Shown piece by piece: positions 3,615 through 8,810 of a stretch of DNA of 64,000 nt. Below the pieces are notes generated by a model. It was not told the origin of the DNA and did not search any database. It was given only the letters and a program-made list of their open reading frames with translations. Numbering within the stretch: position 1 is the stretch's first letter; each line of letters opens with the position of its first letter. Source of the stretch: Mucilaginibacter cryoferens (GTDB lineage Bacteria > Bacteroidota > Bacteroidia > Sphingobacteriales > Sphingobacteriaceae); assembly GCF_014205845.1 (NCBI RefSeq), contig NZ_JACHCR010000026.1, positions 1-64,000 on the forward strand. The letters are read 5' to 3'. Position numbers and translations under genes: made by a program.

Positions 3615-3930
3615 GGAGACGCATGTGATGCGCCTCTACAAAATCCCCGTTTGCAATTACGTCATTCCCGTTTTTTCCAGGTTAACTCTGGTTGTCACTT
3701 ATAATGACACAGTTGTAAGTAATTGATTATCAGCATGTATTTCTTTCACACGCAACACCCAAGCGACCGTCATTGCTTCGTCGTACCTCCTCGCAAGGAC
3801 GGCCTTTTTTAGTTGTCATTCCCGTTTTTTTCAGGTTAACTCTGGTTGTCACTTATAATGACACAGTTGTAAATAATTGATTATCAGTATATATTTCTTT
3901 CACACACAACACCCAAGCGACCGTCATTGA
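3615..3930. repeat. Short intergenic repeat cluster
   Basis: This holds a GAGACGCAT-gtg-ATGCGCCTC hairpin (about 3618-3640). It also holds two direct copies of one unit, about 3661-3790 and 3813-3925. The unit contains GTCATTCCCGTTTTTT, AGGTTAACTCTGGTTGTCAC, TTATAATGACACAGTTGTAA and ATTGATTATCAG. Related fragments recur at 8100-8200, 8440-8530 and 53465-53540. No coding frame is credible. Confidence 0.6.
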
Positions 3931-4054
3931 GTGACAACCAGGGTTAACTGGAAAAAATAGTTATGACATGGTTGCAAATGGGCGGTTGTGGACTAAATAA
4001 TAAGGAGGTCTTATTTAAAAAAGTGGTGGGATTGTGCGATTCCCCTCTCGAGAG
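3931..4054 (+). repeat. 309-bp repeat R1, left half (interrupted copy)
   Basis: Nearly identical, in inverse orientation, to the left part of the intact copy at 8166-8474. It ends inside the palindrome CCCCTCTCGAGAGGGG, where the 2-kb element begins. The continuation resumes at 6120. Left (124) plus right (193) minus the 8-bp duplication gives 309, the length of the intact copy. Confidence 0.85.
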
Positions 4055-4111
4055 GGCACTAACATATCTATTTACACTATATTTGGTGATGTATTTAAAC
4101 ATCAGCATGTT

Positions 4112-4345
4112 ATGGCAATTGAAAATGTAACCGTTTATAATTTATCACTTGAATTACGTGAAGTAAATACTAAGCTTAAGGATATTTGCAAAAAATACCA
4201 AATAGAATATGGCGATCTTTTTTGCTCTTTTGATGGGTTTTACCTAATTGGCATCGACATTAGTGGCGTTTTAAATAATTCAAATAGCCCACTAAGGGAA
4301 TCCTTAATCGATTTTCAGGAACCTCGTACTGAAAAGTCAGCATAA
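4112..4345 (+). CDS. Small hypothetical protein in the mobile element
   Basis: A 77-codon frame from ATG 4112 (MAIENVTVYNLSLELREV). The open frame extends upstream to a GTG at 4034, but that start lies in the flanking repeat, outside the element, so the inner ATG was chosen. The middle looks protein-like, with an amphipathic LSLELREVNTKLKDICKK helix. Its last 86 bases overlap the 3' end of the convergent gene at 4260-4592, so one of the two may be spurious. No family recognised. Confidence 0.35.
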   Translation: MAIENVTVYNLSLELREVNTKLKDICKKYQIEYGDLFCSFDGFYLIGIDISGVLNNSNSPLRESLIDFQEPRTEKSA

Positions 4346-4592
4346 CTTCCAAATCATTATTATCAAGTAATTCTTTATCCTTAAGGTACTTTTCATTGTC
4401 TACCTCGATGAGTTCATAGTTGACAGTTGATTGAAAATCTGCTATAGTGGTAATGGCTATGTATAAAAGCATATAGGGTGTATGCACACGACCGGATACA
4501 CTTGGCAAATCAGATGATACCAAATAAACATCCCCGTGTTTAACTCCGCTGTTTAATATTTGCTCACGCGATTCCTGATAAGTCATAATCAA
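4260..4592 (-). CDS. Hypothetical protein, 110 aa, in the mobile element
   Basis: Begins MIMTYQESREQ and has mixed alpha/beta-looking composition with acidic clusters (VDNEKYLKDKELLDNND). No signal peptide or membrane segment. A GTGTAAA / TTTACAC inverted pair (4608-4614 and 4637-4643) lies just upstream. TTTACAC also occurs in the element's left terminal repeat, so the region may bind an element-specific protein. No family recognised and no function can be assigned. Confidence 0.5.
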   Translation of the reverse strand: MIMTYQESREQILNSGVKHGDVYLVSSDLPSVSGRVHTPYMLLYIAITTIADFQSTVNYELIEVDNEKYLKDKELLDNNDLEVMLTFQYEVPENRLRIPLVGYLNYLKRH

Positions 4593-4828
4593 ATCTACAT
4601 CTTTTTAGTGTAAACTAAATCTTATAAATCATTACATTTACACCAATTAAAATATTGTACTAAATCGGAGTGCTACCCAAATTCTCACAAATAGCATGCA
4701 CGCAACCGAGATATAAGTACGCTGTAAAGGCGTGGCTGTATCTTTTTGCGGGTAGGGATGTGGTGTCCCTTGAGTAGCTAAAGGTAATCGGTTACGCCAT
4801 AATTTTTAAACTCTAAACACACCACAAA

Positions 4829-5377
4829 ATGAAACACCTAACCCTTATGGGCATCCTATGCCTATGCGCTTGCTCATGTAAGCAAGTTGTAAATCAAAAC
4901 TCTTGTACAGTGCCCGTACAGGTTACAGAGCCACATGACAAGTCAAATCTGTACCTAATTATGAATAAAGACACTTCGGGGATGGATTGTGCTATCTATA
5001 ACTCAGTAAATACATATCTAAAGGAAACTCTACGAGATTACTCCAGCTATCAACCTGTGAGTTTTGCCGAATTTTCGGAAGTTAGATCAAAAGAGGCAGA
5101 TAAAATAGCCGTATATCTATCAGATAAAGGCTATAACGATGGTAAAAATAGAAACCCTAAAAATGATAGCTTGGCAAATGAATGGAGGAAAATGAAACCA
5201 GTGGGGTTTACTATCAAACATAAGTTCAGGGCCAAAAATGGATTTGGTGTATATGGTTTAGAAACAGATGAGTTTAGCTTAGATACATTATTCAAAGTTA
5301 TGTCGGCCGATAAATCTGATTACATGGCAGATAAACAGGCAGATATAGATCGTAGAATGAAATTACTACAAAAATAG
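4829..5377 (+). CDS. Hypothetical lipoprotein in the mobile element
   Basis: A 182-residue protein with a short hydrophobic leader and a cysteine-rich lipobox region (LCLCACSCKQ), so probably membrane-anchored and exported. The mature part is hydrophilic and lysine/aspartate-rich, without a recognised domain. Its last third contains KHKFRAKNGFG. It is followed after 27 bases by a gene for a membrane-anchored winged-helix-like protein in the same direction; the two probably form an operon ending at the terminator at 5840. It is element cargo of unknown role. Confidence 0.65.
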   Translation: MKHLTLMGILCLCACSCKQVVNQNSCTVPVQVTEPHDKSNLYLIMNKDTSGMDCAIYNSVNTYLKETLRDYSSYQPVSFAEFSEVRSKEADKIAVYLSDKGYNDGKNRNPKNDSLANEWRKMKPVGFTIKHKFRAKNGFGVYGLETDEFSLDTLFKVMSADKSDYMADKQADIDRRMKLLQK

Positions 5378-5404
5378 TATATTCAGAGACTAAGAACCAC
5401 AATC

Positions 5405-5803
5405 ATGAGCCTTACACCCATTCAAAAAATTGATATTGTTTTGTCTATACTTAGAGATAATAAACCATATCATAGAAATTCATTAACTGAAAAGCTAATT
5501 GAAAAAGGCATTGAGTATACTGATGCCGAATTAAGGATTGCACTTAGACAAGCAAATGAAGATGGGTATATCTATTCTGAACCACATACCGGGAACATCA
5601 CTATAACGCTTAAGGGATATATGTTTGTTGGATATGAACAGCAGGCTATCGACGACGCCCGTAACGAAGATCGAGTAAGGAAGAACGAACGATGGGTTTT
5701 GAGAGCCACTTGGGCGGCGGCCATAGTCGGATTTCTTGTGTTGTCATGGTACGTATTGATTTGGTTTTGTCCCCATCCGCACGATTGCTTTTACAGAAGA
5801 TAG
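5405..5803 (+). CDS. Winged-helix-like protein with C-terminal membrane segment
   Basis: 132 residues. Residues 1-80 read like a winged helix: IQKIDIVLSILRDNKPYHR, then a helix-turn-helix-like stretch and a TLKGYMF wing. Residues about 97-118 (WVLRATWAAAIVGFLVLSWY) form one transmembrane helix, followed by a short Cys/His-rich tail (CPHPHDC). The DNA-binding assignment rests on overall pattern only. It lies downstream of the lipoprotein gene and upstream of a strong terminator. Function unknown. Confidence 0.6.
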   Translation: MSLTPIQKIDIVLSILRDNKPYHRNSLTEKLIEKGIEYTDAELRIALRQANEDGYIYSEPHTGNITITLKGYMFVGYEQQAIDDARNEDRVRKNERWVLRATWAAAIVGFLVLSWYVLIWFCPHPHDCFYRR

Positions 5804-5839
5804 CCTTTATTTTTTCTATTATTTTCATATTTTTAATTT

Positions 5840-5875
5840 ATAGCCAGTATTTGATTACTGGCTATTTTTATTTTT
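5840..5875 (+). terminator. Intrinsic terminator inside the mobile element
   Basis: Perfect 10-bp stem ATAGCCAGTA / TACTGGCTAT with a 6-base loop, followed by TTTTATTTTT. It ends the lipoprotein and winged-helix gene pair. Confidence 0.85.
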
Positions 5876-5932
5876 ACCCTTGTCCCAACTGCTATATAGT
5901 TACCAGTAAGTCATTCTGACTTCTCAAATAAA

Positions 5933-6085
5933 ATGGATAACAGTTTAAATACCCCAAATACAACTACATACAAGGCAGCTGAAAAAAGCAAAAAATCACC
6001 TATGGTTACATTGGGTATCATAATTGGTGTGTTGTCTGGGCTTGCCGTACTTTATGATTTATTGAAAAAATATCATGTCATATAA
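5933..6085 (+). CDS. Small single-span membrane protein, 50 aa
   Basis: A 50-codon frame (MDNSLNTPNTTTYKAAEKS...) with a polar, lysine-containing N-terminus, one hydrophobic span (MVTLGIIIGVLSGLAVLYDL, about residues 24-43) and a short basic tail. It lies between the terminator at 5840 and the right end of the element, in the same direction as the two preceding genes. Size and topology are those of small membrane peptides, but nothing in the sequence assigns a role. Confidence 0.5.
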   Translation: MDNSLNTPNTTTYKAAEKSKKSPMVTLGIIIGVLSGLAVLYDLLKKYHVI

Positions 6086-6119
6086 ATTAACAATCGGTGT
6101 ACATTTGTATGTTAGTGCC

Positions 6120-6312
6120 CTCGAGAGGGGCGGAGGGGTGTGTTTATGCACGCGAAAGAACGCTGTAGAACACACCCCTGCCAACGCTCAGTCCGGCGCG
6201 CCCCCTCTCTAGAGGGGAAAAAATGATGAAGGCACCTCATTGTATCTTGGACATTAGGAGTTTTAAAAAATTATACTGATAATCAATGCTTTATAATCAT
6301 GTCATTATAAGG
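6120..6312 (+). repeat. 309-bp repeat R1, right half
   Basis: Continues the interrupted copy: CTCGAGAGGGGCGG, then an inverted pair GGGGTGTGTT / AACACACCCC type stem, a second CCCTCTCTAGAGGGG palindrome with one changed base, and the tail AATCAATGCTTTATAATCA. It matches the reverse complement of 8166-8354 with few differences. Confidence 0.85.
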
Positions 6313-6565
6313 CACGAAGCAATCCCCGATTTACAGAGTAGCTGTGCAAATCCGCTCTGTAAGTAGGGGATTGCTTCGTCGTACCTCCTCGCAAGGACGG
6401 TCTTTCTTTAAGATATCATTTCTGTTTTTTACAGCACGGCTGGTGATTACTCGCAAGGACGGCCTTTTTAGATGTCATAACTGTTTTTTCCAGTTTACCA
6501 CTGGTGATCACTCGCAATAACGATCTGTATCTTTATTTAAAAACAGGTTATTAGTGCTATTAACT
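6313..6565. repeat. Palindromic intergenic repeats
   Basis: A long imperfect hairpin: CGAAGCAATCCCCG, an ACAGAGT loop, then GGGGATTGCTTCGTCGTACC. Three degenerate units of the GTCAT...TTTTTTCCAG...CACTCGCAA type follow. The same series appears in the same orientation at about 8535-8800, and its first hairpin also at 7984-8090. No gene. Confidence 0.7.
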
Positions 6566-7983: not shown

Positions 7984-8165
7984 TAGTGTCATTATAAGGC
8001 AGCGAAGCAATCCCCGGCTTACAGAGTCGGCGTGCAATCCGCCCTGTAATTTGGAGATTGCTTTGTTGTGCCTCCTTATAACGACATTTTTTTAAAGCAT
8101 TGATTATCAGTATGTATTTTTTTTAAACACACCACCCTCGCCACCGTCATTGCTTCGTCGTACCT
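7984..8165. repeat. Palindromic intergenic repeats
   Basis: Another copy of the CGAAGCAATCCCCG ... ACAGAGT ... GAGATTGCTTTGTTGTGCC hairpin family, followed by the ATTGATTATCAGTATGTA unit. No gene. Confidence 0.65.
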
Positions 8166-8474
8166 CCTTATAATGACGTGATTTTAAAGCATTGATTATC
8201 AGTATAATTTTAAAAAGCTCCTAATGCCCAAGATACAATGAGGTGCCTTCATCATTTTTTCCCCTCTCGAGAGGGGGCGCGCCGGACTGAGCGTTGGCAG
8301 GGGTGTGTTCTACAGCGTTCTTTCGCGTGCATAAACACACCCCTCCGCCCCTCTCGAGAGGGGAATCGCACAATCCCACCACTTTTTTAAATAAGACCTC
8401 CTTATTATTTAGTCCACAACCGCCCATTTGCAACCATGTCATAACTATTTTTTCCAGTTAACCCTAGTTGTCAC
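8166..8474 (-). repeat. 309-bp repeat R2 (intact copy)
   Basis: Intact, inverted copy of the repeat split by the 2-kb element. It contains two CCCCTCTCGAGAGGGG palindromes flanking an inner AGGGGTGTGTT / AACACACCCCT stem, so the unit could extrude as a multi-stem structure. It serves as the empty-site reference for the insertion at 4055-6119. The 73-codon frame inside it is repeat sequence, not a gene. Confidence 0.85.
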
Positions 8475-8810
8475 TTATAATGACATACTTTCAATGTATT
8501 GATTATCAGTATGTATTTTTCTAAACACAACACCCTCGCCACCGTCATTGCGAGGTACGAAGCAATCCCCGACCTACAGAGTCGCTATGCAAATCCGCCC
8601 TGTAATTTGGGGATTGCTTCGTCGTACCTCCTCGCAAGGACGGCCTTTTTTAGATGTCATAACTATTTTTTCCAGTTAACCCTAGTTGTCACTCGCAAGG
8701 ACGACCTTTTTAAGATGTCATCAATGTTTTTTCTAGCACTGTTGGTTGTCACTCGCAATAGCGATTTTTTTATTTATTTTCAAACAGGCCATTAGTAACT
8801 CAATAGCAAC
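8475..8810. repeat. Palindromic intergenic repeats
   Basis: GTCATTGCGAGGTACGAAGC ... ACAGAGT ... GCTTCGTCGTACCTCCTCGC forms a long hairpin (about 8545-8642). Degenerate GTCAT...TTTTTTCC...TTGTCACTCGCAA units follow up to the SusD gene's 3' end. It parallels 6313-6565. Confidence 0.7.

Follow-up and report, generated by a model that had tools for sequence, protein, structure and literature searches.

The window analyzed here, a 64,000-nt stretch of Mucilaginibacter cryoferens DNA (contig NZ_JACHCR010000026.1, positions 1 to 64,000), contains a 2065-bp element at positions 4055–6119 in which no transposase ORF was detected. The element is bounded by 23-bp terminal inverted repeats, GGCACTAACATATCTATTTACAC on the left (4055–4077, plus strand) and GGCACTAACATACAAATGTACAC on the right (6097–6119, minus strand), which are identical at 19 of 23 positions, and it is flanked by the 8-bp target duplication CTCGAGAG at 4047–4054 and again at 6120–6127. 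It interrupts a minus-strand copy of a 309-bp repeat, the left part of which, duplication included, lies at 3931–4054 and the right part at 6120–6312; counted from 6128 onward (6128–6312), the right part and the left part add up to 309 bp. An intact plus-strand copy of the repeat at 8166–8474 represents a paralogous empty site, and the two arms are 99% and 96% identical to the reverse complement of 8166–8475. These boundaries, the 8-bp duplication, the halves totaling 309 bp, and the imperfect 23-bp ends bear out the insertion proposed in a preliminary description of this DNA. The “internal empty site” of that description exists as the intact repeat elsewhere within the window, and in no other sense; overlooked in it were a noncoding RNA and a second, internal transposon end. 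The exact 12-mer GGCACTAACATA, which forms the first 12 bases of both ends, is absent elsewhere in the 6.95-Mb assembly, where the window element is present in a single copy.

The gene content of the element is roughly as first listed, except at its left-hand side, where the minus-strand ORF at 4260–4586 is more likely to be the gene than the overlapping plus-strand ORF. Its product, a small uncharacterized protein of 108 aa, is related (27% over 103 aa) to one encoded by the G039 element. To its right, a structured leader RNA (4654–4827, plus strand) ends just ahead of the start codon of the next gene (4829–5377, plus strand), the product of which is a lipoprotein-like cargo protein of 182 aa that matches phrog_21933 (function unknown; E 8.7e-9). 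A 132-aa protein follows (5405–5803, plus strand), with relatives in the G091, G039, and G143 elements, the last of which is 25% identical to it (E 5e-6). AlphaFold predicts three helices, strands, and a long helix for this protein at low confidence (pLDDT 56), possibly a winged helix with a C-terminal membrane helix. The last ORF, for a 50-aa membrane peptide (5933–6085, plus strand), has the internal end on one side and the right end of the element on the other. Five element ORFs were tested, and none matched a transposase family; searches of the five against Pfam, NCBIfam, and PHROGs, and of three against PADLOC as well, gave no usable function, the phrog_21933 match being the only clear one.

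Relatives with IS1595-Family Transposases

An end-pattern search over 149 Mucilaginibacter genomes returned paired ends in other species, and 15 elements with 8-bp duplications were delineated around these ends and around DNA similar to the window element. They range in size from 771 bp (genome G147) to 5470 bp (G054). Eight of them contain a transposase-like ORF and seven, including the window element, contain none, which supports the earlier view of the latter as a cargo-carrying, transposase-free unit. Four of the eight transposases were tested: those of G143 and G047 and one of G043 matched PF12762 (E 2.2e-40 to 6.4e-43), and the fourth, from G017, belongs to the IS1 family (PF03400, E 8.5e-8).

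The 3497-bp element of G143 encodes an IS1595-family transposase of 305 aa (PF12762, E 2.2e-40) between the ends GGCATCAATATACTATTATACAC and GGCAACAACATACAATATTACAC; it is flanked by the 8-bp duplication CCCAAGAG, is inserted in the 309-bp type of repeat family, and also holds a leader RNA of the window type. Its ends are similar but not identical to those of the window element (right with right 18/23, left with left 15/23). The preliminary description knew of no described family that matched and had proposed a search of related genomes. The search recovered similar ends in other species as well as this relative with a transposase, and the first statement is not supported, as the G143 element shares end class, 8-bp duplication, target repeat, and related cargo with the window element and adds a PF12762 transposase.

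When the G143 transposase was itself used as a query, a 74% identical protein was found in G070 (contig C38) within an element whose ends resemble those of the window element at 12–16 of 23 positions, and matches with E ≤1e-20 were present in 48 of the 149 genus genomes, G000 not being one of them. Among 40 fetched transposase loci, two of which repeat loci retrieved earlier, 29 have an end pair (at least 16/23) and an exact 8-bp duplication around the transposase and 11 do not. As a background to end pairing, duplications shifted by 1–3 bases gave 36 pairs of unspecified strength over 86 sources, and some of the pairs in the 53 positive sources are weak. In the host assembly, which consists of 64 contigs, no close transposase was found. 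The window element may therefore be stranded. Repeats may be missing from the assembly because of its division into 64 contigs. The only IS1595-like transposase match in the host, at C23:31389, was rejected as a candidate, since it is distant (~23% to the G143 protein) and no convincing end pair was found around it. A scan of a contig collection for the ends returned four stretches, two from Mucilaginibacter that were already known and two from unrelated organisms, with a single match and no end pair detected. Neither the exact end pattern nor the exact RNA core was found in viral contigs, a search that reaches close relatives only.

The 8-bp duplication and the ends that it has in common with transposase-encoding relatives connect the window element with IS1595. 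A PF12762 transposase of its own is present in the G143 element and absent from the window element, which is therefore filed as a derivative rather than as a full member of the family. It combines IS ends with passenger genes and lacks a transposase, as do mobile insertion cassettes, and at 2065 bp, with ORFs that have relatives in other elements, it is not the short, noncoding kind of element called a MITE. Judged by these features, the window element is best classed as a mobile insertion cassette of the IS1595 family, a cargo unit that lacks a transposase and for which mobilization in trans is plausible.

Target Sites

A search of the host assembly with the 309-bp repeat gave 70 matches, 17 of which, the intact window copy counted, span at least 290 positions unbroken over the insertion point; thus, there are many paralogous empty sites. 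The insertion point itself is the palindrome CCCCTCTCGAGAGGGG, situated inside this dispersed repeat. Members of this dispersed family are palindromic in part and contain hairpins of the CCCCTCTCGAGAGGGG type, and clusters of short repeats (ACGAAGCAATCCCC... and GTCATTCCCGTTTTTTCCAG...) are found near them at 3661–3929, 6301–6408, 8038–8152, and 8544–8651. These flanking clusters look like REP-type intergenic repeats.

Target choice was assessed in 46 elements with an exact duplication and ends at least 15/23 alike, with refetches and the IS1-type element excluded. The palindromy of the 46 duplications averages 2.15 of 4 pairs compared with 1.40 for shuffled letters, and none of 5000 shuffles was as high. 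A stem score of at least 8 at the insertion site was obtained for 10 of the 46 elements versus 6 of 920 random positions, and the flank-swapped control reached a mean of 1.4 and a maximum of 6 of 46. By BLAST, sequence related to the 309-bp repeat is present at 7 of 12 insertion sites tested, those of the window element, G047, G119, G147 (771 bp), G143, G043, and G076. Three members of the window element’s own end class (G091, G147a, and that on C38 of G070) are inserted elsewhere, with stem-test scores of 1–4. A palindromic or stem-forming target site is thus a partial preference and not a rule; for ends of the window type, palindromes of type CTCNNGAG are predicted to be the preferred target. 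The idea that the RNA loop described below guides target choice was set aside, as the duplications compared by eye are unlike the loops.

A Leader RNA with Two Competing Sets of Pairings

The main DNA-level likeness among the elements is an ORF-free stretch, at ~4578–4845 in the window. It harbors the leader RNA, which lies directly upstream of a cargo gene in elements with differing ends and transposases; its transcripts would be expected to start near the conserved sequence TATTGTACT. An alignment of 27 loci (A2), picked by similarity to the window stretch, supports a first structure that consists of one long hairpin: 98.5% of cells are paired and 16 of 27 pairs are doubly changed, levels that none of 500 shuffles attained. 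Covariance model R1 was built with this first structure alone. In 43 matches from 40 loci that had not been used for R1, the first structure is 97.1% paired, with 22 of 27 pairs doubly changed (0/500 shuffles). Model R2 was made from 69 matches, and in 17 matches that it found in other families the corresponding values are 93.5% and 26 of 27 (0/500 shuffles); these 17 are drawn from 19 phylum-sample matches outside the family, two of which had no locus. The two later sets were aligned (A3 and A5) by fitting to the structure of the model, and one A3 member, L218, is an opposite-strand match overlapping a better one and surely an artefact.

The 27 copies share a second set of pairings. In helix B, GGCGTGGCT pairs with AGTCACGCC (99.2% paired) in competition with the apical hairpin, and the hairpin loop pairs with the 7-nt segment that precedes the start codon (96.8% paired, 6 of 7 pairs doubly changed) in competition with an upstream 5′ copy of the same sequence. 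For these second pairings, all shuffles fell below the observed pairing and covariation score, and 7/500 and 11/500 reached the observed changed-pair and pair-type counts, two of the five measures being weaker. In the 43 further matches, helix B is 90.1% paired and the loop with its 3′ copy 73.0%, the latter because some copies have no 3′ copy. In the window, the 5′ strand of helix B, GGCGTGGCT, which is also the 3′ strand of the apical hairpin, lies at 4729–4737 and the 3′ strand, GGTTACGCC, at 4790–4798, followed by a T-run at 4803–4807 (all plus strand).

The 7-nt loop can thus pair either with the upstream copy or with the identical copy before the ATG, and the two pairings are mutually exclusive. 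In 80 of 87 copies (27 + 43 + 17), with 29 of 33 distinct loops, the 5′ copy complements the loop exactly. Of the 74 copies with an ORF (≥30 aa) close to where the model ends, 44 have an exact loop complement no more than 16 nt ahead of the ATG; these represent 10 distinct loops, and swapped loops gave a maximum of 2. Thus, one variable loop is tracked by two identical short sequences. A recount over 85 copies, from which the artefact match and repeated rows had been removed, left 78/85 exact 5′ copies and 44/73 exact pre-ATG complements; with one mismatch allowed, the recount gave 51, compared with a mean of 10.6 and a maximum of 18 for swapped loops. Where the 3′ copy is missing, helix B and the T-run are mostly retained, and such leaders may work differently. 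Rfam covariance models, applied at E up to 1 to the window piece, 15 genus loci, and 17 phylum-sample loci, gave no match on the RNA, its novelty being judged here against Rfam; the Rfam matches listed in these loci are tRNAs and chance matches outside the leader RNA.

Distribution and Carriage of the Leader RNA

Model R1 has 57 matches in 41 of the 149 genus genomes (E 1e-3) and occurs in 45 of 399 family genomes and 7 of 25 genera (E 1e-4). Model R2 occurs in 64 of 400 genomes of the order sample, covering 10 of 22 genera (E 1e-4), and in 18 of 395 genomes of the sample from the phylum Bacteroidota, covering 13 of 170 genera (E 1e-3). The samples overlap, and stricter filters were applied in the large searches. 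A strict enclosing end pair with an exact duplication surrounds 15 of 27 and 11 of 43 copies, the latter figure counting one element twice via the artefact match, so that 25 of 69 inspected copies remain; three shifted controls of the same test gave 0 pairs. Not all carriers have IS1595-like ends. Enclosing end pairs unlike those of IS1595 were found at loci L087 and L232, and elements with the ends GGTAGTGTCTCAGTTTGAAA contain the leader RNA at L069 (2473–6009, G017) and L224 (1561–4525, G103), the transposase of the G017 element being IS1-like. Plasmid and phage records searched with the window RNA at the level of DNA similarity, which reaches close relatives only, yielded nothing.

The genes behind the leader RNA in elements encode, as judged by eye, mostly small secreted, lipo-, or membrane proteins. 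The cargo of the elements at L074 (G070), L081 (G078), and L071 (G047) and at L077 (G054) includes proteins with the motif RN(I/V)(F/L)AH, HEPN-like by eye, and a SocA/Panacea antitoxin-like protein (PF13274); the RN(I/V)(F/L)AH protein of G070, the one tested, had no match in either Pfam or PADLOC. In another genus of the same family, six loci (L247–L252) all have the loop GTCGCAA with no exact 3′ copy, and in five of the six a protein beginning MAQE(Q/R/N)FYY is encoded downstream of the RNA.

The Chimeric Window Copy and the Internal End

In the window copy the loop, GTGGTGT (4760–4766), is complementary to the 3′ copy, ACACCAC (4819–4825), which lies 3 nt ahead of the start codon. With the 5′ copy, TTCTCAC (4682–4688), complementary to the loop in most other copies, it forms 3 of 7 Watson–Crick pairs, or 5 of 7 with G–U pairs counted (all three on the plus strand). 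Columns 1–112 of the window RNA are 89–94% identical to copies of the TTCTCAC type (L068, L069, and L071), and columns 113–158 are 88–95% identical to copies of the GTGGTGT type (L070, L073, and L074); the last quarter, columns 159–206, is closest to L145 (81%) and not to the GTGGTGT type. By this pattern of similarity the window leader RNA is a chimera, and its loop is therefore a perfect match for the 3′ copy and a poor one for the 5′ copy.

Ensemble folding, with a program that does not model pseudoknots, was applied to 41 copies with an exact 3′ copy and gave a probability of 0.99 for the loop:3′ copy pairing in the window copy; among the 40 others, the loop pairs with the 5′ copy in 33 (P >0.5), with the 3′ copy in 5, and with neither in 2. 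The fold energy of the window RNA has a z score of −2.44, with 2 of 200 shuffles as good, and the AUG is unpaired in the predicted fold. The window copy is thus predicted to stay in the second form, in which the loop is paired with the 3′ copy.

At 5882–5904 (minus strand), inside the window element, lies the end of another IS1595 subtype, GGTAACTATATAGCAGTTGGGAC, an exact match (23/23) to that found in G047. Its position suggests that the chimera originated by way of a nested element: a second element, with ends beginning GGTAAC, may once have been inserted within the window element, its left part having been removed by recombination between two leader-RNA copies.

Discussion

The locus as a whole is best explained, with high probability, as a transposase-less cargo unit of the IS1595 family that carries a cargo gene behind a cis-acting RNA switch. 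A transposase of the IS1595 type acting on the window ends would have inserted the unit into CCCCTCTCGAGAGGGG, generating the 8-bp duplication, and the mover would presumably have been a transposase of the G143 type. It is quite conceivable, if not what we would expect, that the element is instead a dead remnant, in which an autonomous IS1595 cargo transposon inserted here and later lost its transposase in place, in which case the 2065-bp form would never have moved. Recombination within the element, to which both its internal end and its chimeric RNA point, would agree with such a history, as would the single copy and the failure to find a close transposase in the host assembly. However, other species contain six further elements of this kind, lacking a transposase but having end pairs and exact duplications; such forms are thus common, although each of them could still be a separate remnant. 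The IS1595 assignment is independent of this question.

The leader RNA is most likely a cis-acting expression switch. In its long-hairpin form, with the loop paired to the upstream copy, the region before the start codon would be free; in the alternative form, the tail would form helix B and the loop would take up the 3′ copy, covering the region before the ATG, and termination at the T-run would be possible. More broadly, we are inclined to regard the RNA as an undescribed class of bistable leader, unmatched in Rfam, Bacteroidota-wide, and moved from genome to genome by both IS1595 and IS1-like cargo transposons, in which the upstream copy would act as a decoy and each cargo gene would have its private on/off switch. 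Recombination inside the RNA would then swap cargo and could lock the switch, as in the window. A rather doubtful alternative is that the RNA is mainly a transcription attenuator, with helix B and the T-run as an intrinsic terminator and the loop pairings secondary. T-runs do follow helix B, and when the two are compared as isolated duplexes, helix B exceeds the competing apical hairpin in stability in all 27 copies. Among the further matches, the 18 that have no 3′ copy nearby show 145 of 160 helix B cells paired, as high a share as in those with one; yet attenuation leaves the exact loop complement before the ATG in 44 of 74 copies unexplained. That the RNA is a free small RNA that acts in trans on mRNAs, with the pre-ATG copy as one target of several, seems unlikely: copies without a 3′ copy do occur in several families, mostly with a perfect pairing of loop and 5′ copy, but the 3′ copy, where present, lies directly ahead of the downstream gene. 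The notion that the window element belongs to an undescribed transposon family, to which the failure of its own proteins to match any transposase family might point, is largely refuted by the IS1595-family transposases that ends of this class enclose in G143 and G070 and is very improbable.

What appeared to be an orphan insertion thus joins a large population of cargo transposons whose ends, targets, and transposases can be defined, and mobilization in trans therefore becomes testable. The IS1595 family includes members that carry passenger genes. Shared with it are the 8-bp duplication, the ends starting with GG, the passenger genes, and the PF12762 transposase of relatives with the same end class; the window copy differs in having no transposase and in containing the end of a second subtype. 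To our knowledge, no leader RNA has been described for the IS1595 family. Mobile insertion cassettes (MICs), such as MIC231, have IS-type ends and cargo genes and no transposase. The window element resembles them in all three respects, except that its ends are of the IS1595 type rather than the IS231 type and that its mobilization in trans is putative. With MITEs it shares inverted ends, a target duplication, and the absence of a transposase, but it is 2 kb long with several ORFs rather than short and noncoding.

At the start of diverse accessory genes, then, stands an RNA that has very strong covariation, two competing conserved pairings, and no match in Rfam. Bacteroidota rely little on Shine–Dalgarno sequences, and the leader RNA offers a way of testing directly how these bacteria could control translation starts without a fixed sequence. 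It resembles attenuators and riboswitch-type leaders in that it is structured, sits in the 5′ leader immediately ahead of the start codon, and has two pairings that exclude each other. Unlike those leaders, it is matched by no Rfam model, its switching strand, a 7-mer, varies and has two complements of identical sequence, and it is often borne by transposons.
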